The position numbers and the translations under genes were made by a program. From Cellulomonas hominis (GTDB lineage Bacteria; Actinomycetota; Actinomycetes; Actinomycetales; Cellulomonadaceae), in the NCBI RefSeq assembly GCF_005239125.1, contig NZ_SZYE01000015.1, forward strand, positions 1 to 36,839: a stretch of 36,839 nt of DNA, in the 5' to 3' direction. This document shows, in pieces, positions 5,489-20,211 of the stretch. Positions within the stretch are counted from its first letter, which is position 1. Every line of letters begins with the position of its first letter. The notes beneath the pieces were generated by a model. The model saw only the letters and a list, made by a program, of their open reading frames with translations. It ran no database searches and was not told where the DNA came from.

Positions 5489-5565
5489 GGGCCTGTAGCT
5501 CAGTTGGTCAGAGCGCCGCGCTTACACCGCGGAGGTCGTCGGTTCGAGACCGGCCGGGCCCACCA
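5489..5565 (+). tRNA. tRNA-Val (anticodon TAC)
   Basis: A full cloverleaf is readable: acceptor arms GGGCCTG (5489-5495) and CGGGCCC (5555-5561, one G-T pair), D-arm GCTC/GAGC, anticodon stem CCGCG/CGCGG with loop CTTACAC and anticodon TAC at 5523-5525, and a T-arm with GGTTCGAGACC. The discriminator A is 5562 and CCA is encoded at 5563-5565. The gene marks the left border of the accessory island. Confidence 0.97.
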
Positions 5566-5569
5566 CGGC
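5559..5569 (+). other. candidate left attachment core (tRNA 3' end)
   Basis: The 11-mer CCCACCACGGC spans the tRNA 3' end and is repeated in the same orientation at 19692-19702, immediately before high-GC chromosomal genes resume. tRNA 3' ends are the usual targets of tyrosine integrases. Eleven bases is short and could be chance; no integrase gene is present. Confidence 0.3.
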
Positions 5570-5807
5570 TTGTTCGTCATGAACGAGCGAAGTTGTTTGT
5601 CTAACTGCTCTGCGGCGTGTTCTCGGCGGGCGGTTTGTGTGTTTAGGTGTTGAGCAGGGACTCTACTAGCACGTGAGCGTTCTAGTCCCCGGGCTTGACG
5701 TGAGCAGCGGGCTTTGGAGTGTATGCCAACCAGCGCGCTGACCGTCACGGTCAGTGGGCTGGCGGGTGGGGATGTTCAGTTCAGTAGGGGAGCATCCCCG
5801 GGGTGTG
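5570..5807. other. non-coding start of the island
   Basis: No credible gene. Base composition drops abruptly compared with the left flank. A perfect 8-1-8 palindrome (CTGACCGT-C-ACGGTCAG) lies at 5738-5754, and a second imperfect dyad around 5797-5818 (CCCGGG arms around TGTGTCA). Frames crossing the tRNA are artefacts. Confidence 0.5.
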
Positions 5808-6350
5808 TCACCCGGGCTGGTGGGGGACCGCGGTAGTGCGGACCAGAGGGACAGGCCGGCGCCCGACGTCCGCGAAGGTCTTCCGGGAGTTCCGAGCGGT
5901 CAGGTAGTGGGGCCGCTCGACGCACTCGTGGAGGGCGCGAGCGCGAGGATGGCGCTTGCGCCTCTTCAGCTTGTCCGTCGGCGGAGCGTCGGAGTGGTCG
6001 CCGATCGCGGCGAGCCATGGGTTCGGTGCCAGGCGCAGGAGGTGCCAGTCGCGGATCTTCCGGACGTTCAACCCGACAAGCCCGAACGTGATCAGAGCGT
6101 GGTTGCGGGACGCGCCGTGAACGCGAGAGCAGAACCGGTCGAAGTTCATATCGCGGTGGGCGCGCGCTTCGGAGTGCACGTGCTCGATCGCGGACCGGCG
6201 GGAGTACGATGCGAACCACTGCGTCGTACCGAACAGCAGCGGCTGACGCTCGCGGAGGAAGAACTCGAGGCTGAGGGTGGCGGTTCTGACGCACCCGCAC
6301 GTCGTGATGACGTCTCCCTCGTCGTCGTACGTCGCAGGTGCGCACATCGA
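5808..6350 (-). pseudogene. transposase-like remnant (C-terminal part)
   Basis: The last ~180 residues of a longer open frame have protein character, unlike the part upstream. They read FFLRERQPLLFGTTQWFASY, then SRRSAIEHVHSEARAHRD, then NHALITFGLVGLNVRKIRDWH. The pattern R-R-x-x-I-E followed by a region ending in a hydrophobic helix with LNVRKI resembles the C-terminal DDE region (third acidic residue) of several IS transposases. The N-terminal two thirds of a transposase is missing and no terminal repeats were seen, so this is a degraded insertion element. Family uncertain. Confidence 0.45.
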
Positions 6351-6705
6351 CGGCGCTCTCGCAGGCGCCCTCTCCGACGTGGACCAGCGCGCCCCGAGCG
6401 CAGCCAAGGCTGCAGCCAAGGTTCTGATCGAGGCCGCGTGCCCGGTATCGCCAGCCTGGCACTGCGACGGAGGTGGTCGTGGCGCGAGGGGCGCCGCGTC
6501 CCGGCGATGCTGCTCACCGAGGACCCGCGCGTCCGTGAGGCGATCCGTCGGGTCGCGAGCAGCACCACGCTCTCGAGCCCATACGTACGTAGATCGGGAC
6601 CGGGTCCAGGTGATCCGCCCCAACGGCGCCCCGAGGGACAGTGGCAACGCCACCCCCGGGGCGCCGTCATGCAGTCCCGTCGCGCCCTCTAGAGTCGGGG
6701 GTGCC
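6351..6705. other. no gene recognised
   Basis: About 355 bases between the transposase-like remnant and the protease stop codon. Several frames are open on both strands but none shows protein character; probably decayed mobile-element DNA. Confidence 0.4.
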
Positions 6706-8034
6706 CTAGGTAGTGGGAACGCGCCATCCGAGGTTGTTGCCGATCGCCACCACGCTGGTGAGCCACACAGTCGGGCTGCACCGGCGACCATCGGAGGCAC
6801 CAGGAACGCCCTGGCAGGTGGTCGGGGAGCCCGTCGGGATCGCAGAGATGATGCCCACAGCAAGCCGCTGCGCCCCCGCGGAAGAGCTCACGATCGTGTA
6901 GCCAGGCCCGCCGCTGTCCCCGTTGCCGGCAGCGGGCTGGTCGTTCACGTTGGTTGTGCGCATGCCGAAGACGGCGGTCAGGTCGCCGCCGAGACTGTAG
7001 TTTTCCGTGGTCGAGCTGACGAGGTTGCCGCAGTTCAGGCCGCTGTAGGACCCGGAGAAGCACAGTTCCTGTCCGATGTACGGCGTTGTCTGGCCGTTGA
7101 TGGCCGAGAAGATCGTCGAGTTGTATTCAGCGGTCCACATGTACGGGTTCGCGAACGTGGTCGTCAGGATCGCGCCGTCGTTCAGAACGTCCCGTGTGGC
7201 GGTCGTGCCGAAGAGGTACCACTGCACGGGCGTGACCGACCGGTCCGGCGTGACCCACTGCTCTCCGACGGCGCCGCAGTGTGCCGCGAACATCAGGCCG
7301 CGGGCGCTGGCGTCGTTGTCCTTCACGACGGTGAAGCCGCTGGTGCAGCCGGCGCCGGTATTCCACGACGTGAGCCGTGCCCCGCCGAGGTGGTAGCTGA
7401 TGTCGCTGAGCCGGGCGTTGTCGAACGCGGCCTGCGGCACGTCGTTGTCGAACGTCAGGGGGAAATGCGCCTCGTTCTGCAGGCGCTCCTGCAACGTGGG
7501 TTCGGCCGACCGCTGGGCACTGGGGCCGCTGACCTCGTCGAGGCTCACCCTGATCCCGGATCCGTCGTAGAGCGCAGCCGCAGACGCCACACGCGCGTCC
7601 GACTCGACCAGGCGGCGGGCAGCATCGCGGAGCTCGCCAGGCATGAACTCGGTCTGCTCGATCACCACCTCAACGCTGGGAACGGTGGAGGTGTCGCGCG
7701 CGAGCTCGGTGGTGATCTCGCCGTGCCAGTACACGATGACCTGGGTGCGATCCCGGGTGACCTCGACCGCCGAGAACTGCGGGTCGGTGCCGTACTGCTC
7801 GCTGAGCGAGGCAGCCAGGTCGTTCATTTCCTTGGGGACCGCCGGCAGGGCCAGCTGCTCGCTGTCTTCGCCGGACGCGTCGGGTGCGATGACCGACTCG
7901 CCCTCGGCGACAAACGGCGCTTCCTGCCCGGACCAGGGCGCTCCTCCGGCCTCGGCTCCGGTAACTCCTGCAGCGACCAAGGTGATCGCTGCTGCTGACG
8001 CAACGGCAAGGCGTTGACGGGTACGACGTCTCAC
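6706..8034 (-). CDS. secreted S1-family (chymotrypsin-like) serine protease
   Basis: 442-residue preproenzyme. The start is GTG at 8034: AGGGAGC lies seven bases upstream and the next residues form a classical signal peptide (RRRTRQRL, then a hydrophobic AVASAAAITLVAAGVTG, cleavage likely after AEA near residue 29). A propeptide of about 180 residues follows. The catalytic domain shows FAAHCG (His about 252), LNDGAIL (Asp about 286) and GNGDSGGP (Ser about 374), with several Cys pairs including Cys230/Cys253. It resembles streptogrisin/alpha-lytic-type proteases that fold with a pro-region. It stands alone on the island, codon use is less GC-biased than in chromosomal neighbours, and acquisition by transfer is likely. 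Confidence 0.92.
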   Translation of the reverse strand: MRRRTRQRLAVASAAAITLVAAGVTGAEAGGAPWSGQEAPFVAEGESVIAPDASGEDSEQLALPAVPKEMNDLAASLSEQYGTDPQFSAVEVTRDRTQVIVYWHGEITTELARDTSTVPSVEVVIEQTEFMPGELRDAARRLVESDARVASAAALYDGSGIRVSLDEVSGPSAQRSAEPTLQERLQNEAHFPLTFDNDVPQAAFDNARLSDISYHLGGARLTSWNTGAGCTSGFTVVKDNDASARGLMFAAHCGAVGEQWVTPDRSVTPVQWYLFGTTATRDVLNDGAILTTTFANPYMWTAEYNSTIFSAINGQTTPYIGQELCFSGSYSGLNCGNLVSSTTENYSLGGDLTAVFGMRTTNVNDQPAAGNGDSGGPGYTIVSSSAGAQRLAVGIISAIPTGSPTTCQGVPGASDGRRCSPTVWLTSVVAIGNNLGWRVPTT

Positions 8035-8206
8035 GGTTTTGCTCCCTGCAGTCGTGATCGCGCATCTCCGCGGCCGCGGAGATGCCTTCGTACGCACCAG
8101 GAAGACGCGTCAACCGGCGCGTGTCGATCACGCTATGAAGGGAAAGGGTCGCGCATCTGGGTTTCTGCGTGACCCGTCCGAGTGAACCGTGACGGGCTGT
8201 CAGCGT

Positions 8207-8527
8207 TCAGCCCACCGCGACGACGACCAGTGCTCCTGCGGCGATCGTCGAGACCGCGAGGCCCCACCATGCAAGGTGCGCTCGTGTACGGCGAGCAGCG
8301 ACAACGGCCACCCCAGCCCCCGCGAGCGCCAGGACGAGGCTGGCGACGACGCCAGGTGTCACCGCAGGATCGCCGCACGGAACCGGGGGGTAGACAGGCC
8401 GGCAGAGCGCGTCGGGGCCGTCGCCCGCCGCGATGGCAACAAAGGCGGCGATTGCCGCGCACGCCACGACGACGCCGCACACCTGCTGCACAGAACGCCC
8501 GCGTCGTGGGTGAGTCGAAGTGACCAT
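8207..8527 (-). CDS. small membrane protein, three predicted TM segments
   Basis: 106 residues with a basic, cytoplasmic-looking N-terminus (TSTHPRRGRS) and three hydrophobic stretches: VCGVVVACAAIAAFVAIAAG (about 17-36), PGVVASLVLALAGAGVAVVAA (about 58-78) and LAWWGLAVSTIAAGALVVVAVG (about 85-106). The loop after the first segment has two Cys (ALCRPVYPPVPCG) and would face outside. The family is not recognised. No clear Shine-Dalgarno precedes the ATG. Confidence 0.7.
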   Translation of the reverse strand: MVTSTHPRRGRSVQQVCGVVVACAAIAAFVAIAAGDGPDALCRPVYPPVPCGDPAVTPGVVASLVLALAGAGVAVVAARRTRAHLAWWGLAVSTIAAGALVVVAVG

Positions 8528-8700
8528 GCCGACATCATGGTCACGATCGTCCGCTGAGTCGATCCGCCGCTGTGCGCACTTCGCCCGGTCCTACCGGACG
8601 AACGTGCAGCACACGACACGGGCGCTTTATGTGCGCTCGCCGGCCACGTCCTGCTCTGTCTCTGGTGCCACGTTGCCAGTTGGGCCGTCTGTGCATCCAC

Positions 8701-8928
8701 CTAGGACGCGTCTCCCAAGTGGTCGAGGTGGGTGTTGAGGTCGCGCATGGTGTGGTGGAAGGCGGTCTCGAGGTCGACGTCATAGGTGTCGGCGAGGGTG
8801 AGCACGGCCCAGAGGCAGTCGGCGAGCTCGTGGGCCAATGCGGCGTCCAGGTCGTCTGGCGGACGGACTCCGGCCTTGCCTTGCACGAGTTTGGCGAGGT
8901 CGCCAACGTCGCCGAGGAACCTCACCAT
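8701..8928 (-). pseudogene. MazG-like nucleotide pyrophosphohydrolase, 5'-truncated
   Basis: The readable part (LGDVGDLAKLVQ, then HELADCLWAVLTLADTYDVDLETAFHHTM) matches the helical core of MazG-like NTP pyrophosphohydrolases; acidic metal ligands are represented by HELAD and the preceding GDVGD helix. Family character actually continues upstream of the ATG at 8928 to about 8960 (YGRSWTPEEI), where it stops abruptly against a truncated gene on the other strand. So the true N-terminus is missing and the ATG at 8928 is an internal Met. Probably non-functional. Confidence 0.65.
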
Positions 8929-8957
8929 GATCTCTTCGGGGGTCCAGGACCGTCCGT

Positions 8958-9221
8958 AGCGGGGACCGGGTCGTAACCGTCCTGTCCGGGGTGCCGGGCC
9001 TACGCGTCGCGGCCCCCGAGGGCACCTACCTCGCCTGGGTCGATGCCACCGGCACCGGGGTCGCTGCGCCCGCCGGCCACCTCGCCGACCACGGGGTGCT
9101 CGTCACCGACGGCGCCGGGTTCGGCAGCGCGTACAGCGGCTGGTTCCGGCGCAACTTCGCCACGCCCGCACCGGTCCTCGACGAGGTGCTGCGCCGCGTG
9201 GCCGCCTCGTTCGCCTCCTGA
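8958..9221 (+). pseudogene. C-terminal fragment of a class I/II (PatB/MalY-like) aminotransferase
   Basis: The frame reads VVTVLSGVPGLRV-AAPEGTYLAWVD and ends with VLVTDGAGFGSAYSGWFRRNFATP and a terminal helix LDEVLRRVAASFAS. This is the small C-terminal domain of PLP-dependent fold-type I aminotransferases of the cystathionine beta-lyase/PatB group; the PLP-lysine domain is absent. Protein character begins near 8958, head-to-head with the truncated MazG-like gene, so a rearrangement junction lies at about 8955-8965. An isolated start at 8991 is not meaningful. Confidence 0.7.
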
Positions 9222-9255
9222 ACCGCACCACCCACCACCACAGAAGCGAGCTCCC

Positions 9256-9600
9256 GTGTCGCACTACACCGACCCCACCGACGCCCAGTACACCGCGGTC
9301 TACAAGGGGCAGACCCCGGAGATGCTGAAGGCGTGCCTCGCCTTCGACTCGACCGTGTTCGCCGCGGACGGGCCCGAGCTGCCGCTCAAGGTGCGGGAGC
9401 TGATTACCGTCGCGGTCGCGCTGACCACCCAGTGCTCCTATCGCATCGAAGCGCACAGCGAGAACGCCATGAAGGCCGGCGCCATCATGGGAGAGCTCGC
9501 CGAGGCGTCCTGGGTCGCCAGCGCGATCCGCGCCGGCGGCGGGTTCGCGCACGGGCGGATGGCGTTCAAGGTCGCCCAGCCGCACGCGCACTCCGCCTGA
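9256..9600 (+). CDS. carboxymuconolactone decarboxylase/AhpD-like protein with a lost second Cys
   Basis: 114-residue helical protein of the CMD/AhpD superfamily, recognisable from LPLKVRELITVAVALTTQCSY followed by a conserved His (about 67), and AGAIMGELAEASWVASAIRAGGGFAHG. The family's redox motif is CxxC followed by His four residues later; here it reads C-S-Y-R (Cys60, Arg63). The Arg codon cgc is one transition from tgc, so the second active-site Cys seems to have been lost by a point mutation. The start is GTG at 9256 with GAAGCGAG upstream. It follows an aminotransferase fragment and ends at a strong terminator; the piece looks like chromosomal DNA caught in the island. Peroxide or disulfide reduction is unlikely with this site. 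Confidence 0.85.
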   Translation: MSHYTDPTDAQYTAVYKGQTPEMLKACLAFDSTVFAADGPELPLKVRELITVAVALTTQCSYRIEAHSENAMKAGAIMGELAEASWVASAIRAGGGFAHGRMAFKVAQPHAHSA

Positions 9601-10517
9601 CGGGACGGCCCCGCGCGGCGGCAGCCGCGCGGGGCCGTCCACGACACCGAGAACGGCATTTCCGTCGCGACGTGGGCGACGGGGCCCCGTTCCGTGCAGG
9701 TCAGGTCCGACGGGAGCAGTCGTGACACCTGATGTTCTTGGGTGTGCGCTCGAGAGAGCGGTGCTGGTGCACCCGGGTTAGCGCGTTGCGTCTTGGGAAG
9801 AACCACGCACGGGCTCGGCGTCGATCGCGGCGAGCACATCCTTGAGAGGGCGATGAACCGCCGACACGCGGTGCACGAGAGCACCACTAGACCGGGCGTC
9901 GCGAGTATGCAGACGGTAGCGCCGACCTGCGGGGACGTAAGCTCGTTCAGCGCGAAAGCGATCGGTGCGAACAGCGCGACTCCCAACGGGATGGGCACGA
10001 GACCGAGCAGGGCGTCACCAGTCCGAATCATTCGTGCCGTGGTCATCGCCTCGTCACGACCGGTCTGCTGGTCTAGGTACGCAACTCGCCGACCCGCGCG
10101 ATCGACCCATGCACGGTGGGTGGTGGAGAACGACCCGAAGGCCGCGTATCCGATCGCGGAGGTGAGCGTGGCGGCAACGATGACCTCGTTCACGGCGACG
10201 TCCGCTGGCACATTGAGTCCCGTCGACACCGCGAAAGCGCCCGCGATCACCCAGGCCCCGAACGCCAGAACGTCGACGCGAGTCACCGGTGGGTAGCGCG
10301 TGAGCGACACCAACAGGTGCGTTCGCCTGTTCAGCTCGCGTCGTAGTTCCAGACGAGCAGACCTCGGCACCCGTTCGAGGAACTCCGTCGCGCGGACCTC
10401 ATCTCGCAATCGGCGTGCTGTACGAAACAACGGGCTGATGGTGGCGACGAGGCCCGCGCCGATTACTCCGACGACGACCTTCGCAGCCTCTGAGAGCATG
10501 CCGTCCATGGAACGCAT
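9438..10517 (-). CDS. multi-pass membrane protein with an aberrant C-terminal read-through
   Basis: The first ~250 residues are credible: a short N-terminus, a TM helix (VVVGVIGAGLVATISPL), a basic stretch with RRLRDEVRATEFLERVPRSARLELRRELN, then four more TM helices (VDVLAFGAWVIAGAFAVS; VIVAATLTSAIGYAAFG; ALLGLVPIPLGVALFAPIAF; VGATVCILATPGLVVLSC). After about 9740 the frame continues antisense through the neighbouring terminator and CMD gene to a stop at 9438, with no protein character. The native 3' end was therefore probably cut off by a rearrangement. Starts at 10517, 10508 or 10499 are possible; none has a good Shine-Dalgarno. Function unknown. Confidence 0.55.
   Translation of the reverse strand: MRSMDGMLSEAAKVVVGVIGAGLVATISPLFRTARRLRDEVRATEFLERVPRSARLELRRELNRRTHLLVSLTRYPPVTRVDVLAFGAWVIAGAFAVSTGLNVPADVAVNEVIVAATLTSAIGYAAFGSFSTTHRAWVDRAGRRVAYLDQQTGRDEAMTTARMIRTGDALLGLVPIPLGVALFAPIAFALNELTSPQVGATVCILATPGLVVLSCTACRRFIALSRMCSPRSTPSPCVVLPKTQRANPGAPAPLSRAHTQEHQVSRLLPSDLTCTERGPVAHVATEMPFSVSWTAPRGCRRAGPSRQAECACGWATLNAIRPCANPPPARIALATQDASASSPMMAPAFMAFSLCASMR
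9603..9640 (+). terminator. strong terminator after the CMD gene
   Basis: A perfect 16-bp stem (9603-9618 with 9625-9640, GGACGGCCCCGCGCGG arm) with a 6-nt loop, three bases after the CMD stop codon. No T run. Confidence 0.8.
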
Positions 10518-11225
10518 CGTGGCAGCAGGCACCCACACACCTTGCGCGAGCACCCCCGCGCCGTCTGGGTCCACACCGAGCATGCGACCCGGTGACCGGG
10601 GGTGCGAGTACGTCGTCCTGCTGCGCCGGCATCCGGCGCGCGAGAGTCCCGCCCGATCCGAACGCGCCTTTCCGGGAGGGGGGAAGTGGACGAACCTTGT
10701 CGGTATGGCTAGTGCGCCACACTGTCGACGAAAGCGCGCATGAAAACGCCTTCTCGCCCCGACTCACAGGCGCTCCGAACGGGTGAGCTAGTGCGAGCGA
10801 CTACGTCGTTGTCGCTGGCGGACCCGGGTCCGCGGTGGCGTCGACAGCCCGGATGCGCCAGCTCCCGCGTCACAGAGTCACAAAGCGGCGGCACATCGCC
10901 AGCACCATTGGATGCGCAGAGTTCCAGCCGCACCGCTCGAACCAACGAGAGAAGCTCACGGCGCCCCGGGTTCCCGAACCCTAGACGCCAGAGGCCCGCG
11001 TACGAAAGGCGGCTCCTCGCACGACCCAACGACGAGGTCGTCGACTGGGGCGCCGGATTCGACATGACACGGCCTGACGGCTCGAACCCGTGGCACGGCG
11101 CGCATCGTGACGACGCCGGTGGCCGCACACCCGATCTAGGCGCGCCTCGAGCACCGCGATCGCAACACCGCGGACGCTGGTGTCGCCGGCGTTCCTCAAG
11201 AGCAGGTTGTGCTCTACATTCGCAC
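10518..11225. other. about 700 bases without a recognisable gene
   Basis: Both strands were read. The longest open frames (minus 10709-11128, plus from 10740) have low-complexity composition and no domain-like blocks. tRNA-like T-loop words near 11050-11095 do not extend into cloverleaves. Probably decayed island DNA; it may hold the promoter of the membrane-protein gene. Confidence 0.4.
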
Positions 11226-12077
11226 TCAGTGCACGGGCTCCAGAACTCGCTTGTGGAACTCTTGCCTCGTGTAGGGCGTGACGTCGTTCAGACGCCATGC
11301 CTCCTGAGCCGCGCCGAAGATGTCAGTCCGCCAGCCGCGGTCTCGGTCGGATGTCGGCGGGTCATAGACGACGTCGATCGGCGCGTCGGCAGGCAACGTC
11401 GCGGTGCGGGAGTTTCCGAGCTGCAGTTCCGCGCCGTCGTCGCGGAACCTCGTCACGAGGTAGTTCCAGGACTGGATCTCTCGTTCGAGAACGTCTAGCG
11501 ATGCGACGTTGAATGCCCACACGTTGGTCAGCGCGTTGATCTCGTTGCCAGTGCGCAGCAGATCGAAGCTACCCCGCTGCTTCCCAATTCGCGCCTTCGG
11601 CTGGACGAAGAGGTCGACGTCCTCGGTGAGGAGACCCTCATAAACCAACCTGTCGCGCACGTCCGCACGGAGAGTTCGACGCGTCACGCTCCGGCGGTGT
11701 CGCGCCGGCTCTCGTTCGACGAGGTGAGGGAAGAGCAGATCGATTCCCGCTTGCGCGGTATCGACCGCTATGGGAGCGGGTGCTGAGAACTGCACCGAGT
11801 TGGCCTGGCGCGCGCGTAGGTTCTCGACCCATCCACTGCCGATCGAGTGCTCGCCGAAGCCGACGGCGCCGTGGTTATCGATGATGCGCCGGAACCAGCC
11901 GATCCACCCCGACAGCTCTCGTAGATCGGAACTGAGGTTCCCGCGATTGCGGACGAAACGCGGGTCGAATCGTACGGCCCAGTCGGCGCCGTCTCGCCCG
12001 CAAACGAGGCCGATGTTCGTGAACTCGCCCCGTGCGACATTCGGGACGAATCGGATTATCCAGTACTGGTAGCTCAC
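11226..12077 (-). CDS. DUF3037 family protein
   Basis: 283 residues beginning SYQYWIIRFVPNVARGEFTNIGLVCG, the diagnostic opening of DUF3037, a family frequently encoded next to HipA-like kinases. The conserved N-terminal half (to about residue 150) is followed by a variable C-terminal half (from RRTLRADVRDRLVYEGL). The start is GTG at 12077 with a near-consensus AGGAGG six bases upstream. It begins 11 bases after the HipA-like stop, so the pair is one operon and almost certainly one functional unit; its molecular role is not established. Confidence 0.9.
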   Translation of the reverse strand: MSYQYWIIRFVPNVARGEFTNIGLVCGRDGADWAVRFDPRFVRNRGNLSSDLRELSGWIGWFRRIIDNHGAVGFGEHSIGSGWVENLRARQANSVQFSAPAPIAVDTAQAGIDLLFPHLVEREPARHRRSVTRRTLRADVRDRLVYEGLLTEDVDLFVQPKARIGKQRGSFDLLRTGNEINALTNVWAFNVASLDVLEREIQSWNYLVTRFRDDGAELQLGNSRTATLPADAPIDVVYDPPTSDRDRGWRTDIFGAAQEAWRLNDVTPYTRQEFHKRVLEPVH

Positions 12078-12088
12078 GGGGCACCTCC

Positions 12089-12850
12089 TCAGGAGTGTCG
12101 GCTCTGGTTCGCGGCGGCGCGGAGCCGGTCTGCCACGCCCTCAGCGCGGAGGAACAGTATCGACGCTAGCTCCGACAGTTCCTGCACGGTGGTGTCCCAT
12201 TCTAGAGGCACCGCACCTGTGACGCCCTGGATCGTCCCCAAGCTGAGATCGTCGATCCGGTCGGCGGCTTCCCGCAGCGCGGATGCAGAGGCGACCCCTG
12301 CATCGAGGTCGTGCCGCCACGGCGAGGTGCCGATCCTCCTGAGCGAGTCGACGTCCCAGTCTGCCTCTCCGGCCAGCCAGAACCCGTGGTCGAAGGTCCA
12401 GATGCTGTAGTCCTCCGTGGTCTGATGCAGCCACTGCGGGTCGACGCCCATGCAGAGGTCCCAGAGGGCGAAGATGAACGCCTGCCGCCGCCTGTTGTCA
12501 TCCCGATGTGAGTAGACGCCCCAGTCATCTGCGACGATGACATCCTCGACGTGCTGCGACCCGTGCCCGACACCGCCGTGCAGGTACTGAGCTGGCGCGT
12601 AGTCCCAGCGAAGCGACTGCGGGATCTCGACGAGCACGTTGCTCGGCACGGGCGCTCCAATCAACCGCCCGATCCCGTACGCGACCGCCTCGGCGACTAG
12701 CGTCCGCGATCCCTGCGGGTTTCCTGGCGCCTTCACCCAGTACTGCCGTCCGTCGGAAGCCAGTCCTAGGAACGCGGCTGAGCCGGAGTCGCCTCGCCGC
12801 AACGGTGCAACCAGCGCCACGCGAGAAGGCGGAGTGACCTGGCTGACCAT
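12089..12850 (-). CDS. HipA-like kinase-fold protein
   Basis: 253 residues resembling the short HipA-family proteins that partner DUF3037 proteins. Visible kinase-like features are a glycine-containing strand with a Lys (YWVKAPGNPQGSRTLVAEAVAYGIGRLIGAPVP, Lys about 40), a helix with WDLCMGVDPQWLHQTTEDY (Asp about 131) and a DFG-like FDHGFWL (about 153). It is about half the length of classical HipA and lacks an obvious HipB partner. The ATG at 12850 has no Shine-Dalgarno, but TAGGCT stands six bases before it, so a leaderless transcript is likely. First gene of a two-gene operon with DUF3037. A role as a toxin, kinase or defence component is inference. Confidence 0.82.
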   Translation of the reverse strand: MVSQVTPPSRVALVAPLRRGDSGSAAFLGLASDGRQYWVKAPGNPQGSRTLVAEAVAYGIGRLIGAPVPSNVLVEIPQSLRWDYAPAQYLHGGVGHGSQHVEDVIVADDWGVYSHRDDNRRRQAFIFALWDLCMGVDPQWLHQTTEDYSIWTFDHGFWLAGEADWDVDSLRRIGTSPWRHDLDAGVASASALREAADRIDDLSLGTIQGVTGAVPLEWDTTVQELSELASILFLRAEGVADRLRAAANQSRHS

Positions 12851-13156
12851 ACCTAAAGCCTATAGACGGTCGCGCGTCAGGCCCGGGAGGCTCGTCACGC
12901 GGCGTTGCCCTGATCTTCAGGCTGCCGACCGCTTCGACCAGAGCGCCCCCGCTCGATCGGCCTGCGGCGTCCGTCGTCGCGGCGCGTCACCTTCGCGGTT
13001 ACGTCTCCTGCGCTCGGCGCAACGGTGCGCGCGTCACTTGATACTCGGTGGCCTGCTGCATCTTGGTGATGCCTTTCGGGCTTGCCAGCGGCCCGGGACT
13101 CGGCGCCGCAACCGCGTGGTGGCCGCCTGGTTCGATCAGGCCCAGCGGAGCCGACG
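12851..13156. other. no gene recognised
   Basis: Reading both strands shows no frame with protein character. It holds the leaderless promoter of the HipA-like operon next to 12851 and otherwise looks like decayed DNA. Confidence 0.4.
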
Positions 13157-13219
13157 GCCTGTACACAGCATCACCCTCACCTCTACGCGCTCCTGAACAG
13201 GGACAACGTCGCCGCCGGT
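13157..13219 (+). repeat. island repeat A (matches 19598-19661)
   Basis: About 63 bases that align in the same orientation with 19598-19661, sharing words such as GCCTGT-CACAGC, ACCCTCA, CGCTCCTGA and CAGGGAC, with one single-base gap and roughly four of five positions identical by eye. The two copies enclose the AbiEii remnant and the SIR2/Rel cassette. Nature unknown; not clearly coding. Confidence 0.55.
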
Positions 13220-13269
13220 AGGCGGACCAACGAACGATCCGCTTGCCGGGTGTACGCGCGAATCCACCT

Positions 13270-13940
13270 GCACCTCCAGGCAAGCGACTGCGTCACCGAG
13301 ACCTCGACCAAGGGCGTAAAACGCAACGTCGGCTTCCAGTACCCCCCGCAGGTTCACCCACGCGACCGCCAAAGAGTACCTGCTGCTCGAGATGGGAAGC
13401 AGGGGAGGGCCGAACCCCCACGCGATGCACACCGTGCGGTCCATGGTCGTGGAGTACGCGATCACAGAGCTCGGTGACGACGAGTCGACGTGGCCGGAGT
13501 TCGCACCGGTGATGATCGAAGTGCTTGCGCCCGAGCGGACTTTGCTGGAGAAGTGCGCGCTGCTCCACAACCTGGGGGCCAAGATCGCGCAGGATCAGGA
13601 CCAGGTTGCGCTGGAGTACATCGGACGCGCAGGCCGGCACTACTACGACGTCGCACGCCTGCTGTCCGACGAAGGAGTTCGCGACTCGCTGGACGCCCTG
13701 GGGCCTGATGGGGTGGAGAAGTTCGCTGCGAACATCGACGAGGCCAGCGACAACGCTGGCTGGCGGTTCGAGCCCCGCCCCGAGGACAGGTACGGAGTGA
13801 GTGTGGCGTTCGACGCCGACGCACCATGCCACGCCAACGCCGCGGCTGCTTATGAGAGCGCCATGCCGACGTTCGACGGAGAGGCGCCCACGTTCGTGGA
13901 CGTCTTGACGACCGTCCGTAAGTACCGGCACCTCATCTAG
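13270..13940 (+). pseudogene. AbiEii-type nucleotidyltransferase remnant (5'-truncated, frameshifted)
   Basis: The stretch from the ATG at 13392 to 13940 reads VRSMVVEYAI, then LAPERTLLEKCALLHNLGAKI and GRHYYDVARLL, the C-terminal hallmark (PERT-EK-L, RHYYD) of AbiEii/AbiGii nucleotidyltransferase toxins. Family character continues upstream of that ATG (RRFTHATAKEYLLLE) and then, one frame over, in TETSTKGVKRNVGFQYP. The frames switch in a run of six C at about 13342-13347, where one base fewer would restore a single frame. The N-terminal nucleotidyltransferase domain (GSxxxD type) and the antitoxin AbiEi are absent. A decayed toxin-antitoxin locus. Confidence 0.72.
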
Positions 13941-13990
13941 GTTCGCGGCGCGGCGAGGGCGCACATTAGGGCACGAAGGCAGGTGCGCGC

Positions 13991-14047
13991 CTCGTGGCCC
14001 TTAGGCCCATCGCAGCGAACTTATGCGATGGGCCTAAGGGCCACGAG
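13991..14047. terminator. perfect 24-bp hairpin
   Basis: Arms 13991-14014 and 14024-14047 are perfectly complementary over 24 bp (arm begins CTCGTGGCCCTTAGGCCCAT) with a 9-nt loop. It lies 50 bases after the AbiEii remnant. The perfect stem is longer than the other terminators here, and it lacks a T run, so it might also be a transposon or recombination structure. Confidence 0.6.
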
Positions 14048-14329
14048 ATGACTATTCACCCGAACGCGTAGCCCGTACGGTGGACGTGTTCCGCGATTTC
14101 ATCCGATCGACGCACCGGCGTCGGAGAGGCTGCACGACCGTGGTGCGTAAGCGCGTACGTCTCGACGAAACGCCCGCCGCGTTGCGCTACGTCAACTGCC
14201 TCCGAGGGCGAACATCACACGCCGCCCGCGAGCGGTCGCGCGTTCCGCTGCGGCATCCTGCAGCCCCGCGCGGTCCAAGGTCCCATGTCGCGCCGGAGGA
14301 GGGCTCTACTGCTCGGCAGCACTCCCTAT

Positions 14330-14712
14330 TCGGATGGGAGGTGACCGGCCCCGTCGGGGGGCCAAGACGGAGGCCCTGTCACGAATCGCACAGATGCACG
14401 CCGACGAGATCCGCATGCACGACTGGTCGGACGCTCACACTCGGCTCGACCGGGCGGGACACGACCGCACGCTCGACCGGACTTCGAGCGAGGCGCTCGA
14501 CGCAACCCGTACCCGCAACGTCCGCGTCAACGTGATGTGGGTGACCGCCCAGGTCCTCGCGTACAACGACCTGAACTTCGACGTCGTTGAGTTCGCGTCT
14601 CAGTGCGGGATCACGGACCTGGGCAGGGGCTGGCTCGAGAACGGGATCCGCGGAAGTAACGGGACGTTCCAGCGCCCCGGCACCACCGTGTTCGCCGACA
14701 GCGACTCCGAGG
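14330..14712 (+). repeat. direct repeat, copy 1 (0.37 kb, matches 19098-19495)
   Basis: Aligns in the same orientation with 19098-19495, long blocks being identical (for example CGGCCCCGTCGGGGGGCCA and GCAGATGCACGCCGACGAGA, allowing single differences). The similarity begins just before a GGCC..GGCC hairpin upstream of the repeated reading frame and ends at GACTC-GAGGCG / GACTC-CAGGCG. The two copies flank the SIR2/Rel/186-aa cassette. Confidence 0.8.
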
Positions 14713-14720
14713 CGTCATCT
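14334..14720 (+). pseudogene. unknown repeated protein, copy 1 (3' end lost)
   Basis: The frame shows a conserved segment of about 115 residues: LSRIAQMHADEIRMHDWSDA, then RTRNVRVNVMWVTAQVLAYN, then NFDVVEFASQCGI-DLGRGWL and FQRPGTT. It is matched closely by copy 2 at 19152. After about 14712 the frame stays open to 15068 but has no protein character and runs antisense into the SIR2 gene, so the native C-terminus is missing. Start uncertain: ATG at 14334 or ATG at 14394. Not a family I recognise; composition suggests a soluble, mostly helical protein. Confidence 0.5.
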
Positions 14721-14721
14721 G

Positions 14722-14757
14722 GCCTGCCTGCCCGCGAGACGCTGCGGGCCGGCAGGC
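14722..14757. terminator. terminator between copy 1 and the SIR2 gene
   Basis: A 14-bp stem with one mismatch (14722-14735 with 14744-14757) and an 8-nt loop, 60 bases downstream of the SIR2 stop on the minus strand; it can serve both convergent genes. Confidence 0.65.
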
Positions 14758-14817
14758 GGCCGCCGCGCATCGCAGGTGCGGGCGGCACCGATCATCATCC
14801 AGCGGCTGCTGCTCGGG

Positions 14818-16671
14818 TCACACGTCGGCGCCGTTCGAGTCGAGCCAGACCCGGTCCGTGCGCCATCGATGGCGCTGCACGGCCTGCGCTGCCGCCACGC
14901 TCGTCGCCAGCAGAGCGGTGCGCGTCGACAGCAGATCGTACGCACGCGAACCGAGCATGGGATGTCCTGCCCCCTGCCGATCGAGTTCGCGCACCAAGGT
15001 CTCGGCGACCGGCAGCCGGTGGCCTCTGTTCCAGTCGAGGCGAGCCGCGAACAGGTGTGGCGCCGTGATCGGTACGAGGTTGGCCAGCTGTGCGACCGCG
15101 TGCTGATGCGCCACGTGGGCCGAGGAGCGTTCCTCTGGCGTCACAGCTTGCGCGACCTTGCCGGCCGCTTCCACGAACTCGTCCCGGAGGCGGGAGAAGG
15201 AGGCGTTCTCGATGGTCAGCGTAGCGAGCCGCAGTACCTCGAAGCGCTGCCACGCATCTTCAATCGCGCGTGGACCTAGTGAGAGGCCGGCTTGCAGGAC
15301 CGGTGCCAGCGCCTCGTACGACACGAACTCAGCCAGGTGGCTCGCGAGGACCACCTCGTGGTGATCGTGCATATCGGCGCCTCGTAGGGTCAGCAGCTGG
15401 TACATCGATGAGAACCGTCCTGCCGCCACGGACGCGATTCCGGCGGACCAGTAGAGCATCGCGCCGACGTGGCGGGGCAGTGCCAGCATCTTGACCAGAC
15501 CGTCACCGTAGGCGTTGACGCCGAAGCGGGGGATCTCCCGCAGCCACCATTCGTTGCTGCCCTCCGAGCCCCAGTACGCCACCGCTGCGACGAGTGCGGC
15601 TGGTACCTGAGCCGCCTCTCGCACGGCCGCGATCATTGCCGGGATGCCGACGTCGACCTCGCGCGGGTGGTCGGAAGGGTTGAGTTCCGGTAGGGCGTGC
15701 AGACGCGTGAACTCCGCCCCGAGGGTGTCGTGCAGTTCGATCGCCACCCAGCGACCTGACAGCTCCCGCCGGGCTGTCTCGGCTGCGACTGTCACCGTCA
15801 GCGGGTGCCTCGCCCTCCGGGCGCGCATCGAGGTCACCGCGTCTGCGAGCATCCCGAGCGCCGTGTCAGCATCCGCGCGGATGAGGGTGCCGTGCTTCGC
15901 GGTGCGCAGCTCGACAGCCTCGACGCGCTGCTCGAACGGCTCCACCCACGTCATCGTGAACCGCGGCGGATAGTGCTCGCGGATGGCTTCCCGCAGCGCG
16001 GGGTCGTAGACGCCTGACCATCCTGCTGCCACGAGTCCGTAGTTGGTCAGCACATCCCGGAGAAGTGCCGCCATGTCGGGGTGGTAGGTGCTCAACTCGT
16101 CGGTGGTGTTGAGCATCGACGTCGGGTTCAGGTAGTCGCCGTGCAGGTGGATGACGCAGCATCGGATCGTGTGCAGCGGATCCATGCCGCGCACGTCCGC
16201 CGGGGTGGCGATCACGACGGGCTCGATCCCGGCCGCCCGTAGCGCTTTCTCCATGAGGCGGTCGAAGTTCAGGGTGACGATCACCCGTACCGATCCTGTG
16301 AGCACGAGGCGTGCGACCGCCTCATGCGCTGTCGAGGGTGCCACATCGACGTCGAACTCGTCCCCGGGCTCGAAGAAGCCACGAAGCAGTTTCTGTCGCT
16401 CGATCGGCGTTGGCGCCAGACGTCCGAGCATGTCCTGGTACTCGGCCGCGGTCCCGAACGTCTCAGCGAACCAGCTGATCGGGTCCTCGGGTGCCGCCCC
16501 CATCTGCTTCGCGACCTGAGACGCAAGGGAAACCCGCACATCCCATGCAGACGGAAGTCCGCTGGACATGGAGACTCCGGCGCCGAGCAGGAAGGCGTAC
16601 GCGCCCGGGTTGGAGTGGATGGCGAAACTCAACGTCAGCAGGTCGGTCCCTGGGTCGGCAGGCTGCATCAC
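14818..16671 (-). CDS. SIR2-domain protein with a large unknown C-terminal region
   Basis: 617 residues. The N-terminal ~285 residues are a SIR2-like NAD-binding domain: FLLGAGVSMSSGLPS (GAGxS loop, about 28), VTLNFDRLMEKAL (Asn about 135), VIHLHGDYLNP (His about 177) and LVAAGWSGVYDP (about 213). The Asn and His correspond to residues needed for NAD+ cleavage in Thoeris ThsA-type SIR2 proteins, so NADase activity is plausible. The C-terminal ~330 residues are helical (AAVREAAQVPAALVAAVAYWG, HDHHEVVLASHLAEFVSYEAL) and not recognised; this could be a sensor or oligomerisation part. The GTG at 16671 is chosen because TACGGT lies exactly six bases upstream, as at the Rel-like gene; an ATG follows immediately at 16668. 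Antiphage defence by NAD+ depletion is inferred from the domain and context. Confidence 0.9.
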   Translation of the reverse strand: MMQPADPGTDLLTLSFAIHSNPGAYAFLLGAGVSMSSGLPSAWDVRVSLASQVAKQMGAAPEDPISWFAETFGTAAEYQDMLGRLAPTPIERQKLLRGFFEPGDEFDVDVAPSTAHEAVARLVLTGSVRVIVTLNFDRLMEKALRAAGIEPVVIATPADVRGMDPLHTIRCCVIHLHGDYLNPTSMLNTTDELSTYHPDMAALLRDVLTNYGLVAAGWSGVYDPALREAIREHYPPRFTMTWVEPFEQRVEAVELRTAKHGTLIRADADTALGMLADAVTSMRARRARHPLTVTVAAETARRELSGRWVAIELHDTLGAEFTRLHALPELNPSDHPREVDVGIPAMIAAVREAAQVPAALVAAVAYWGSEGSNEWWLREIPRFGVNAYGDGLVKMLALPRHVGAMLYWSAGIASVAAGRFSSMYQLLTLRGADMHDHHEVVLASHLAEFVSYEALAPVLQAGLSLGPRAIEDAWQRFEVLRLATLTIENASFSRLRDEFVEAAGKVAQAVTPEERSSAHVAHQHAVAQLANLVPITAPHLFAARLDWNRGHRLPVAETLVRELDRQGAGHPMLGSRAYDLLSTRTALLATSVAAAQAVQRHRWRTDRVWLDSNGADV

Positions 16672-16677
16672 GCGTCG

Positions 16678-16683
16678 ACCGTA
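16678..16683 (-). promoter_or_regulatory. -10-like element of the SIR2 gene
   Basis: TACGGT on the minus strand, six bases before the GTG at 16671, within CGCTACGGTCG. The same word with the same spacing precedes the Rel-like gene. No Shine-Dalgarno is present, which supports a leaderless transcript. Confidence 0.5.
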
Positions 16684-16801
16684 GCGTCGCGTGTGCACCC
16701 GATGCGACGCCGCGCCTGATCGGTCAGCACGGCCGTCCACCCGCGTGGGAGTGAGGGTGCTCTGGTGCTCGCCCCTGATCGCCTGGGTGAGCGGCGGTGG
16801 C

Positions 16802-17017
16802 CTAGGACGGGAGCGGATAGCGCCATTGCTTCCGGTCAACTGCGCGGCCTGTCGGATCCATGCTCCACGTGACGGTGACGGTAGTATCTGTGGTCGCGAG
16901 CGTGCCGACGGCGAGAAACTCGACGGCTTCGTCAGGCGCGACACGCGTTGGGTCGCCGTTGACAACGTCGGGTCCCATCAGCGACGAGTGGCCCTCCAGC
17001 TTGACGCGCTCGCTCAG
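16802..17017 (-). pseudogene. fragment of an unknown beta-rich protein
   Basis: The last ~72 residues of a minus-strand frame have protein character: LSERVKLEGHSSLMGPDVVN, DEAVEFLAVGTLATTDTTVTVTW and DRKQWRYPLPS before the stop at 16802, alternating hydrophobic residues as in a beta-sandwich edge. Upstream the frame is low-complexity. An ATG at 16978 could start a 58-residue protein, but the 5' part of a larger gene seems more likely to be missing. It lies just upstream of the SIR2 gene on the same strand. Confidence 0.35.
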
Positions 17018-17259
17018 CGGGCCACCTCGGTGGCGTCTGTCTGCGCCCCATCGCTTGCCCGGTCGGGCCCAGGGGCGTGCAAGATGGTGGCGACCACGCC
17101 TCGTCCCGGGAGCCGAGACCTTCGCGCCCGCGCCTATGTCCCCCGTGCGCAGGGAGTACACCGACGGCCGCGCGCCACCGTATCGAGGGGGTGGGCGCCC
17201 GTGGTCCACTTCGCTGCGATCGGACGCTGATTCCCGAGACGGCGGGGCGACCATCTCGC

Positions 17260-17265
17260 TACGGT
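17260..17265 (+). promoter_or_regulatory. -10-like element of the RelA/SpoT-like gene
   Basis: TACGGT six bases before the ATG at 17272, inside CGCTACGGTCGCGCT, nearly identical to the region before the SIR2 start. No Shine-Dalgarno, so probably leaderless. Confidence 0.5.
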
Positions 17266-17271
17266 CGCGCT

Positions 17272-18336
17272 ATGAAGGCAGTGCCTGCACCCGATGCTGA
17301 GTTCCCATTCACGTTCTCGCAGTTCGAGGAGTGGTACGAGGAGCTGACTCGCGCCCAGCTCGAACCGGCACGCGTCGCGTTCGAGCGCATGATGACGACC
17401 GAACTGCGAACCCTCGAGATCGAGTCGGGAACCGGGCGGTTCCGTACGCCGACGAGTCGAATCAAGGAGCCCTTCCGCCTCTGGGCCAAGATGAAGATGC
17501 CGAAGTACAGCGGACGCATCACCCAGCTCGGTGACATCCCCAAGGTGATCGACGACCTGATCGGTGTCCGGATCGTCTGCGTCAACAAGGCGGATCTGAA
17601 CGCTGTTCGCAAGGCCCTTGACGGCTTCGCGCGCAGCAGCCAGTCCAACGACTTCGGCATCGCGATCGAGGACAACTCAGAACGCGACTACCTGTCGAAG
17701 CCGAAGGACTCGGGCTACCGCGCCTACCACGCGAACCTCGTCACCCGCGTGTCGCACCGCAACGGCATGTTCGTCGTCCGCGGAGAACTTCAGGTGCGCA
17801 CCCTGCTCCAGGACGGATGGGGCGAGCTGACCCACGAGGACACCTACAAGCCCGACCAGGAAGTTCCGCCTATCGTCGAGGTTCTCGCGCTGCGCATGGG
17901 CGAGCTCTTGGCGACCGTCGACGACATCGCGCAGGACATCCGTCAAGAGCTCGGCCGTGACCTCGAAGCGGCCGTCGTCGACGACGCCAAGGGTGCGGCG
18001 CCTGACGACAAGGTGACGACCGAGGAGCCGACCGCGCTCTCTGCACTCGTCGCTGGGCGTGCGGCGAGCATCATCACCAGTTCCAAGCGGCCCCTGGCGC
18101 TCTCTCAGATCGCCACCCAACTCCGAGGGACCTTCGGCGGTCACGAGCTGACCGGATGGTTTGGGCACGGGGCGTTCAAGAACTTCCTCCTCGACGCGGT
18201 CCCGGGGGCGCGCATCATCCCGATCGGCCCGAGCTACGCGGTGCCTCCTGGCGTCGAACCCGACGAGACCTGGCCCGAGAAACTACGGCGCGCCGTCGAA
18301 GGAGAGTCGAGTCCTCGCAGGGAGGATCCGTCGTGA
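17272..18336 (+). CDS. RelA/SpoT-synthetase-domain protein with a C-terminal OST-HTH-like domain
   Basis: 354 residues. Residues about 60-195 form a RelA/SpoT nucleotidyltransferase domain: RIKEPFRLWAKMK (63-75), DDLIGVRIVCV (94-104), RDYLSKPKDSGYRAYHANL (138-156) and GELQVRTLLQDGWGELTHED (171-190). The Glu and Gln of ELQVRT and the His of THED match the synthetase signature, so the site looks intact. There is no HD hydrolase domain, ACT or TGS, so it is not a housekeeping Rel. After an acidic linker (236-256), residues about 257-330 (RAASIITSSKRPLALSQIA, then GWFGHGAFKNFLL) resemble an OST-HTH/LOTUS-type winged helix. Product could be (p)ppGpp, (p)ppApp or a pyrophosphorylated RNA, as in toxic small alarmone synthetases; that is inference. 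Confidence 0.85.
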   Translation: MKAVPAPDAEFPFTFSQFEEWYEELTRAQLEPARVAFERMMTTELRTLEIESGTGRFRTPTSRIKEPFRLWAKMKMPKYSGRITQLGDIPKVIDDLIGVRIVCVNKADLNAVRKALDGFARSSQSNDFGIAIEDNSERDYLSKPKDSGYRAYHANLVTRVSHRNGMFVVRGELQVRTLLQDGWGELTHEDTYKPDQEVPPIVEVLALRMGELLATVDDIAQDIRQELGRDLEAAVVDDAKGAAPDDKVTTEEPTALSALVAGRAASIITSSKRPLALSQIATQLRGTFGGHELTGWFGHGAFKNFLLDAVPGARIIPIGPSYAVPPGVEPDETWPEKLRRAVEGESSPRREDPS

Positions 18337-18419
18337 CGTCAGATCTCGACGGCGTCAGGTCAGATATTTCACACGAACGGCGGTTGGTTGCCTAGCGACC
18401 GGTCTGGTCGAGTAGAGGA

Positions 18420-18980
18420 ATGGGTTTTGACTATGTCGACCTCGATGACGACGTGCGTGGGCATATGCTCGCTGAGTTCGAACTCGACGCGAGCGGCGAG
18501 CTGTACTTGAGCAAGCACTTCAGCAACCTCGGCGCCGAGAGCTACCCGGCCCACATGCGAACAGCGATCCAGGCCGGCAACGACGCGTCGTTGGCTGAAG
18601 CGCTCCGCCGCCAGGAGTACTTCAACTCGCACTACATGCGGGCAGCTCCCGGCGGGGGATCGACCCGTGTCCGGGTGTCGCGCAACGTCGCGGAGACGTT
18701 CGCCCAGGGGGAGTTCAACCGCTTCTACCTGCGCGGACTGTGCAGCAACGTTCTGGCAACCAGCGGCGAGGAGGCCCAGATCGAGATCTACCGGGCGCGC
18801 GCGTCGGCGAACCCGCGCCCCGAGTCCCAGGCGATGGTCGGCAAGCTCGTCCTCGCCGCAGCGCTTCTCGCGGACCTGCGTGCCCACAAGGGTCTCGACC
18901 TGGCGCTCGGAATACCCGCGGGGCCGAACTCCGGATTGTCCGCTCGCAGGCCACGGATCGCCGCGCCGCCGTCCGAATAG
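18420..18980 (+). CDS. unknown 186-aa protein of the SIR2/Rel cassette
   Basis: Acidic N-terminus (FDYVDLDDDVRGHMLAEFELD), a central block FAQGEFNRFYLRGLCSNVLA, then EIYRARASANPRPESQAMVGK, AALLADLRAHKG and a C-terminal motif LALGIPAGPNSGLSAR. The conserved-looking blocks suggest a real family, probably a mixed alpha/beta soluble protein, but I cannot name it or give a function. It starts 83 bases after the Rel-like gene, so cotranscription is possible. GAGGA sits directly against the ATG at 18420, too close for a normal Shine-Dalgarno; the start could be leaderless or slightly downstream. Confidence 0.75.
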   Translation: MGFDYVDLDDDVRGHMLAEFELDASGELYLSKHFSNLGAESYPAHMRTAIQAGNDASLAEALRRQEYFNSHYMRAAPGGGSTRVRVSRNVAETFAQGEFNRFYLRGLCSNVLATSGEEAQIEIYRARASANPRPESQAMVGKLVLAAALLADLRAHKGLDLALGIPAGPNSGLSARRPRIAAPPSE

Positions 18981-19097
18981 GACAAAGCGCCGAAGCCGTA
19001 CTTTCGCCACGTCCATGGGGGGCGGGCTATGTGTCGGCATCGGCGCCAAGAGTCCCCGGCTCCCAGTCGATCGTTTCCTAGAATCGGTTGCAGGCCC

Positions 19098-19495
19098 CGT
19101 TCGGAGGGGGTTCTTGGCCGGCCCCGTCGGGGGGCCAGACACGGGGCGACTGTGGCCCTGTCACGAATCGCGCAGATGCACGCCGACGAGATCCGCATGC
19201 ACGATTGGTCGGACGCTCACACTCGGCTCGACCGCGCAGGGCGCAACCGCGCCGACGACCGGTGTCCGAGCGAAGCGCTCGACGAGACTCGGACCCGCAA
19301 CGTCCGCGTCAATGTGTTGTGGGTGACCGCGCAGGTGCTCGCGTACAACGACCCGAACTTCGACGCCGTCGAGTTCGCGTCGGCGTGCGGGATCAAGGAC
19401 CTCGGACGAGGGTGGCTGGTCAAAGGTCTGCGCGGTCACGACGGGACGTACCAGCGCCCTGGGACGACCGAGTACAACGGGAACGACTCTCAGGC
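19098..19495 (+). repeat. direct repeat, copy 2 (matches 14330-14712)
   Basis: Second copy of the 0.37-kb repeat. It includes the GGCCCCGTCGGGGGGCC hairpin at about 19120-19136 and the unknown reading frame. A possible promoter (TAGAAT, 19079-19084) precedes it. Diverged from copy 1 at many third-codon positions, which indicates past selection on the protein. Confidence 0.8.
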
Positions 19496-19573
19496 GGCCC
19501 CATACGTGCCTCCCTGCGCTTCTACAAACTCATCCAGGTCCTCGTCCGGCGAGTCGGCGAACTGCGCCGATGA
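19152..19573 (+). pseudogene. unknown repeated protein, copy 2 (probable frameshift)
   Basis: From the GTG at 19152 the frame reads ALSRIAQMHADEIRMHDWSD, RTRNVRVNVLWVTAQVLAYN, NFDAVEFASACGI-DLGRGWL, closely matching copy 1. Past GNDSQ (about 19495) this frame remains open to 19874 without protein character. The frame one base over reads RASLRFYKLIQVLVRRVGELRR and stops at 19573, which looks like a genuine amphipathic C-terminus, so a single frameshift near 19490 would give a complete ~140-residue protein. Function unknown. Confidence 0.45.
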
Positions 19574-19597
19574 CACCTTCGCAGGTCCCGCAGTCCA

Positions 19598-19661
19598 GCC
19601 TGTGCACAGCGCGACCCTCAACCTGCACACGCTCCTGACCAGGGACGACGTCGTCGCAGGT
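19598..19661 (+). repeat. island repeat B (matches 13157-13219)
   Basis: Same-orientation partner of repeat A, lying just after copy 2 and just before the chromosome resumes. See repeat A for the shared words. Confidence 0.55.
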
Positions 19662-19691
19662 CAGAACGATCGACAAACGAGCCACCACCAC

Positions 19692-19702
19692 CCCACCACG
19701 GC
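19692..19702 (+). other. candidate right attachment core
   Basis: CCCACCACGGC, identical to the 11 bases across the tRNA-Val 3' end (5559-5569). It is placed where island-like DNA gives way to high-GC genes, but is short and the neighbouring sequence is CCACC-rich, which raises the chance of coincidence. Confidence 0.3.
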
Positions 19703-19764
19703 ATGTCCGGCACGGCTGCCCCTCCCACAGCCCCCAGGGGCCTTCCCCGGGAGTCCTGAGGTCG

Positions 19765-20133
19765 TCAGGCGTCGTCGAAGCGGTCGCGCGCCGCCTCCAC
19801 CTCCGCCAGGTGCGCGGAGGTCCAGGCGAGCAGGGCGTCGACGGGCTCCCGGAGGGTCTTGCCGAGCGGGGTGATCGCGTACTCGACCGCCACCGGACGC
19901 GTGCTGATGACCGCACGGCCGACGATGCCGTTGCGCTCGAGCCGGCGGAGCGTCGCGGTCAACGACTTCGCCGTGACGGCCGGGATCGCCCGGCGCAGGT
20001 CGTTGAACCGGGCGGGCGCCTCGCACAGGTGCTCGAGGACCTGCATCGACCAGGTGTCCAGCACCTGCTCGAGCAGCTCGCGGTGGGGCGCGCCGACGGC
20101 GAGGCGCTCGGCGGGCGTGGCGGTTTCGGTCAC
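19765..20133 (-). CDS. HxlR-family transcriptional regulator
   Basis: 122-residue winged-helix regulator. The HxlR core is visible: LLEQVLDTWSMQVLEHLCEA (helix 1-2), ARFNDLRRAIPAVTAKSLTATLRRLERNGIV (recognition region) and VEYAITPLGKTLREPVDALLAW (wing and C-terminal helix). One Cys lies in the EHLCEAP turn, near where some HxlR/YodB proteins carry a redox-sensing Cys. The GTG at 20133 is chosen over the longer frame because the family begins just after it and the longer frame would cover the divergent Rid gene. Divergent from the Rid gene with 78 bases between, so it probably controls it. Confidence 0.9.
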   Translation of the reverse strand: MTETATPAERLAVGAPHRELLEQVLDTWSMQVLEHLCEAPARFNDLRRAIPAVTAKSLTATLRRLERNGIVGRAVISTRPVAVEYAITPLGKTLREPVDALLAWTSAHLAEVEAARDRFDDA

Positions 20134-20211
20134 GACACCTAGTCTCGTTGAAGTGTCCTGCGGGTACCACGTAGGAAGGGGATACCTGCTTCCCACCCTT
20201 CGGAGGACCTC
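20134..20211. promoter_or_regulatory. divergent HxlR/Rid control region
   Basis: Contains an imperfect dyad GGTACC (20163-20168) ... GATACC (20181-20186) around GTAGGAAGG, a plausible HxlR operator, and the Shine-Dalgarno CGGAGG (20201-20206) of the Rid gene. Confidence 0.4.

Follow-up and report, generated by a model that had tools for sequence, protein, structure and literature searches.

The distal part of a 14.1-kb tRNA-Val genomic island in Cellulomonas hominis probably carries several independently acting defence-like genes

In the 36,839-nucleotide stretch of Cellulomonas hominis DNA analyzed here (the window), a gene encoding a SIR2-family protein is located on the minus strand next to plus-strand genes encoding a RelA/SpoT-type synthetase (Rel) and a protein of 186 aa, and the three genes are enclosed by two diverged copies of a further gene. 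A preliminary description had proposed that they form one defence or toxin module spreading as a mobile cassette. The question is whether the three genes belong to one system or act independently. All three were found between the repeats, their gene families were verified, and codon-position GC supported coding for each ORF. We consider it probable, at about 80%, that this region, as the distal part of an island of 14.1 kb at tRNA-Val, carries several independently acting defence-like genes.

The ends of the insertion were identified by comparison with G401, a sister genome of the same genus carrying an empty site. On one of its contigs (C14), sequences corresponding to window 4570-5566 (95% identity) and 19747-20628 (97% identity) are separated by 31 bp. 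The tRNA-Val (TAC) gene identified by ARAGORN on the plus strand (5489..5565) is the integration target; its last base is 5565, and the G401 match continues to 5566 and resumes at 19747. The 11-bp direct repeat CCCACCACGGC was present on the plus strand at 5559..5569 (candidate attL) and at 19692..19702 (candidate attR), these being its only two occurrences when the whole window was scanned. The GC content of the island was 67.3%, compared with 74.1% and 77.8% for the flanks. The empty site in G401, the presence of CCCACCACGGC at both junctions and the low GC therefore indicate that the insert is a tRNA-Val island of approximately 14.1 kb (5566..19702). The stretch with the three genes is the distal part of this island and not a whole mobile unit. 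G401 provided the sole empty site: among the matches listed for the other 38 genomes of the genus searched, the flanks were never side by side, and the right flank was poorly matched in most of these genomes. No integrase was detected among the subset of island ORFs scanned against protein families, and the island looks partly decayed. The assembly is a draft of 407 contigs. G401 also lacks window 20629-23024, passing from 20628 to 23025 within 43 bp, which is a second difference beside the island.

The conserved cores of the repeat gene are located at 14373..14687 (copy 1) and 19152..19469 (copy 2), both on the plus strand; copy 2 has a GTG start, and copy 1 displays GAG at the same position. 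The direct repeats comprise 300 nt with 84% identity (14366-14665 and 19148-19447), preceded just upstream by an additional stretch of 23 nt with 96% identity. The dN/dS between the copies was 0.21, and both are thus copies of a real protein gene, so that the three genes are indeed enclosed by two diverged copies of one gene, as first described. The coding part comprises about 105 codons per copy, and the open frame beyond has no coding bias; the ORFs of 244 and 281 aa originally assigned to the repeats look like run-on frames. Alignment of six plasmid relatives showed three that stop at approximately 107-116 residues, while two Streptomyces frames reach about 170 residues and a Mycobacterium frame is longer still. 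No Pfam match was obtained up to E 0.1. The gene was present on 11 actinobacterial plasmid records, and in the six of these that were read it had other neighbours, the SIR2, Rel and 186-aa genes all being absent nearby. The best reading is that it represents a plasmid-type accessory gene left over from island building, not a cassette end. The earlier view of the repeats as bounds of a mobile cassette did not hold, since the insertion ends at tRNA-Val and at about 19702 instead.

The SIR2 gene is located at 14818..16668 on the minus strand. Alignments with its strongest relatives begin at residues 4-11, and the additional 5' part of the longer ORF displays no coding codon bias; the start is therefore most likely at 16668, giving a predicted protein of 616 aa. 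The protein matched PF13289 (E 8e-12) and, much more strongly, PADLOC PDC-S65 (E 3.7e-124; residues 6-449 of 616 over profile positions 15-465 of 592), which we take to be a single-gene phage-defence candidate. The nearest solved structure in PDB by sequence was the KomC NADase (E 1.7e-8). The GAGVS, NFD and HGD motifs are conserved, the Asn and His of the latter two presumably being the catalytic residues, and the SIR2 domain with catalytic Asn and His expected of a NADase is thus present. ThsA models matched the protein weakly (E 2e-7), and no TIR gene was found among the subset of island ORFs covered by family scans. From its family, the protein may be a stand-alone abortive-infection effector that would break down NAD+ when triggered by phage. 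We found no paper on PDC-S65, or on SIR2 together with a small alarmone synthetase and phage. Upstream of SIR2, an open frame on the minus strand at 16802-17254 was rejected as a gene, having weak codon bias and no homologue in the fetched loci.

A SIR2 match was obtained in 17 of 396 genomes of the order, including the genome studied here, and 8-13.5 kb of context was taken in 11 of the 16 others. Rel, the 186-aa gene and the repeat gene were absent from all 11 of these chromosomal loci by tblastn, and the sole other recurring gene cluster was found in two of them. SIR2 relatives were also detected on 44 plasmid records. In the six of these that were read, the neighbours included AbiEi/AbiEii, Fic/VbhA, mobilisation genes and transposases, and again tblastn identified no relatives of Rel, the 186-aa gene or the repeat gene (0/6).

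The Rel gene (17272..18336, plus strand, 17272 being the best start) encodes a small alarmone synthetase of 354 aa. The match to PF04607 (E 2.6e-15) reached 57.1 bits against a gathering score of 27, which places the protein among the synthetases, and the motifs GYRAYH and ELQVRT are conserved. The core aligned with the YjbM structure 5f2v (E 7e-13), which we assume to be RelQ, and the solved relatives found were of the YjbM and YwaC types. PADLOC PDC-S33 was matched with E 3e-13 over profile positions 93-174 of 349 only. Some RelA/SpoT-type match was present in 220 of the 396 genomes of the order, including the genome studied here. The best match outside the window was 37% identical and stopped at residue 248; all of the best 30 matches in the order ended at or before residue 276. 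In the eight nearest aligned relatives this part is replaced by a different C-terminal segment, S1/OB-like by eye.

The C-terminus of Rel gave matches at E 0.01 or better in 10 other genomes among 276 of the class. The best six genomes belonged to one genus (E 9e-6 to 2e-4), and the aligned region lies C-terminal to NYN: five of the six proteins had an NYN-like N-terminus, the sixth being cut off, and Pfam confirmed NYN in the two that were scanned. Two of the four weaker matches looked like unrelated proteins. The Pfam OST-HTH model matched neither the Rel C-terminus (limit E 10) nor the two scanned NYN proteins, for which NYN alone was reported. The DUF88/LK-nuclease family of the OST-HTH literature is presumably the family now called NYN. 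According to the accessible part of that literature, the usual bacterial architecture has OST-HTH after DUF88 (PMC2848206), and in the same part RelA does not occur as a whole word. Since the Rel tail matches the post-NYN region, where OST-HTH usually sits, the label OST-HTH given to it in the preliminary description appears to be supported, indirectly, by homology. Among the papers listed for such a fusion, none contained both an alarmone synthetase and a LOTUS domain. Judged from its family, Rel would be a stand-alone synthetase moving pyrophosphate onto a nucleotide or RNA, and its putative RNA-binding tail might select the trigger or the target.

The 186-aa gene (18420..18980, plus strand) displays codon bias and has many homologues. 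Its product belongs to an uncharacterised mobile family, matching PHROG 30545, to which no function is assigned there, with E 8.6e-37; Pfam gave no match at E 0.1. The gene was absent from all 395 other genomes sampled in the order. When one genome per species (84,980 species) was scanned with a profile, 96 loci were detected across many bacterial and archaeal phyla, of which 80 were kept for analysis. The family was also found in 17 viral contigs, four plasmid records and one Erwinia jumbo phage. Ten residues were invariant across 72 sequences. Distinct loci numbered 88 after nine redundant or truncated loci (L056, L137, L141-L144, L151, L153 and L154) were left out; L082, L113 and L132-L134, whose ORF was not picked up, are likewise outside this count. 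We found no paper on phrog_30545.

The neighbours of this family were diverse, the largest neighbour clusters containing seven loci each before duplicate removal. One cluster consisted of DUF2235 in Hymenobacter. The other was a short ORF on the opposite strand, present at L114, L140-L144 and L151, several of these loci being near copies. The Hymenobacter DUF2235 (Tle1-like lipase) genes were located beside the family in both relative orientations (L054, L055, L056, L118, L120, L122 and L137). From 166 neighbour genes, 146 were scanned, the omitted ones being two with stops or X, eight from L053-L057, eight short ones and two others. Pfam matches of these 146 nearest neighbours were scattered, and the 25 commonest families listed included type I restriction specificity subunits, AAA ATPases, phage capsid, primase and two SIR2_2 proteins; the PADLOC and PHROGs matches, again for the 25 commonest families listed, were likewise mixed. 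Close same-strand neighbours were few: a gene of at least 100 aa was located within 150 bp upstream in 27 of the 88 loci and downstream in 23. The 186-aa gene may thus be a solitary cargo gene, with a probable anti-phage or superinfection role.

No conserved linkage of the three genes was detected in the sampled loci. Besides the absence of Rel and the 186-aa gene from the 11 chromosomal and six plasmid SIR2 loci, only one of the 88 loci of the 186-aa family had a Rel-type neighbour and two had a SIR2-type neighbour. The single-system idea therefore fails within the available sample. It would explain why the three genes are adjacent in the window, and it receives some support from L069 (Chloroflexi) and L099 (Planctomycetota), in which the family member is followed downstream, at a distance of 51 bp and about 375 bp, respectively, by a SIR2-type gene. 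However, the three genes occurred together in no other fetched locus, the direct repeats are only 84% identical, the repeat gene had other neighbours on the plasmids read (six of 11), and the insertion ends lie elsewhere than the repeats. One defence system spreading as a cassette between direct repeats is thus largely refuted and is the least probable of the explanations considered. The three loci with a SIR2- or Rel-type neighbour, which come from three phyla, may, as a raw count, be more than expected by chance, and they may also reflect only life in defence islands. A narrower proposal is that Rel and the 186-aa gene constitute a two-gene toxin-antitoxin or effector-sensor operon to which SIR2 is unrelated. 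The two genes have the same strand and are 83 bp apart, so they could be co-transcribed; in L083 (WOR-3) a Rel-type gene, containing unknown bases, is located downstream of the family member; and toxSAS enzymes are known to act as the toxins in toxin-antitoxin modules, according to the accessible part of the literature. This pairing was nevertheless found in only one of the 88 distinct loci, and there in the reverse order, none of 29 fetched Rel relatives had a 186-aa gene nearby (within up to 1.5 kb), and few family members have a close same-strand neighbour. We regard such an operon as very unlikely and prefer independently acting genes. What stands of the proposed defence role is that SIR2 (PDC-S65, strongly) and Rel (PDC-S33, over part of the profile) match defence candidates within a mobile insert; their union in one module is not supported. 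The defence function of each gene is itself suggested by its family.

A different origin of the 186-aa gene was also considered, namely that it is a phage virion gene for a minor head protein of the MuF type that has become stranded in a defence island and plays no part in defence. In five of the 17 viral contigs (L138, L139, L145, L147 and L149; 10-17 kb long), it is located between head and primase genes. Both the primase and the head genes of these contigs were of two types, L147 being assigned by similarity to scanned proteins only. As far as the accessible text of PMC10803314 goes, capsid-forming satellites average 14 kb, and in another satellite family anti-phage genes occupy a slot next to the primase (PMC10803314). 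We infer that the five contigs are capsid-forming satellites with a cargo-like slot. The predicted structure of the 186-aa protein was confident (pLDDT 92, pTM 0.88). Searches of PDB with this model gave no useful match, and in BFVD ranks 1-6 had E 2.6e-4 to 1.9e-2 and TM over query of 0.38-0.52. The first BFVD match (E 2.6e-4) was unnamed; the five named proteins in the top eight were all minor capsid or MuF-like (E 8e-4 to 5e-2, TM over query 0.37-0.47). The modelled fold may therefore weakly resemble phage MuF minor-capsid proteins, which we treat as a lead. This resemblance, the position beside head genes in the five contigs and the membership of PHROG 30545 are in agreement with a virion gene. 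However, in those contigs the 186-aa gene runs in the opposite direction to its neighbours, and thus against the head operon, with intervening ORFs that are short (at most 117 aa); head genes were few among the 146 neighbours scanned (25 commonest families listed); the window member has no Pfam match; and comparison with the MuF profile (Phage_Mu_F, PF04233) gave an hhalign probability of 0.1, the reversed control scoring slightly better. A stranded virion gene is therefore unlikely. A more speculative idea, and a still more doubtful one, is a single-gene anti-phage family common to bacteria, archaea and a jumbo phage, whose free-standing product would mimic a MuF-like head protein, joining and poisoning the assembling head of the incoming phage. 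If true, the slot that the gene has between head and primase in capsid-encoding satellites would serve to put competing phages at a disadvantage, and defence islands would have captured it from such satellites.

Further cargo was identified on the same island. A HipA-like kinase gene (12089..12850, minus strand; PF20613, E 2.3e-9) and the adjoining same-strand DUF3037 gene (11226..12077; PF11236, E 1.8e-7) probably form another two-gene cargo unit (11226-12850). An AbiEii-type gene is represented at 13392..13940 (plus strand) by its C-terminal part, the N-terminal part being absent (PF08843 profile positions 116-228 of 238; PADLOC AbiEii 146-321 of 324). After it comes a possible terminator (13991-14047), an inverted repeat whose 24-bp arms match perfectly around a loop of 9 bp. 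On visual inspection, a 463-aa ORF on the minus strand (6706-8097) resembles a secreted serine protease (GDSGGP); it had no Pfam match at E 0.01. Just before the right end of the island, a sequence at 19543..19683 (plus strand) is repeated as a diverged copy of 69% identity at 13089..13240 (plus strand; self-BLAST E 4e-12), and this repeat pair suggests stepwise accretion of the island. The right-end sequence was rejected as a marker, its short matches in 12 other genomes among the 198 searched falling, where frames were inspected, in unrelated proteins or chance frames.

These results correct an attractive grouping and indicate that neighbours in a defence island need not form one system, and that an island may contain diverged repeats that do not mark its ends. 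Two testable leads emerge. One is the 186-aa family, a novel lead for its spread across bacteria, archaea and a jumbo phage and its position in viral contigs, next to primase and head genes. The other, likewise novel, is the fusion of an alarmone synthetase with an OST-HTH-like, RNA-binding domain; a tail of this kind would point to RNA as the trigger or the substrate.

Among known systems, PDC-S65 resembles the SIR2 protein over residues 6-449 of 616, and relatives, on plasmids as well as elsewhere, have differing neighbours; PDC-S65 is itself a candidate, and the activity of the window protein is predicted from sequence. KomC of Kongming shares the aligned SIR2 domain, including the HGD region (E 1.7e-8), but has 264 aa, whereas the window protein is 616 aa long and includes an additional C-terminal half, and KomC works with partner genes. 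RelQ/RelP (PF04607) share the catalytic core with its GYRAYH and ELQVRT motifs and differ from the window Rel, which has the OST-HTH-like C-terminal domain. The toxSAS modules (FaRel2 and others) likewise have a stand-alone Rel-type enzyme adjoining a small gene; however, the solved relatives found for the window Rel are YjbM-/YwaC-type, and its small neighbour is not a conserved partner (1/88, in reverse order). Although the present island shows no integrase among the scanned ORFs and appears partly decayed, it shares with tRNA-integrated defence islands and phage-satellite cargo hotspots the insertion at a tRNA 3' end, the direct-repeat ends and the mixed defence-like cargo.
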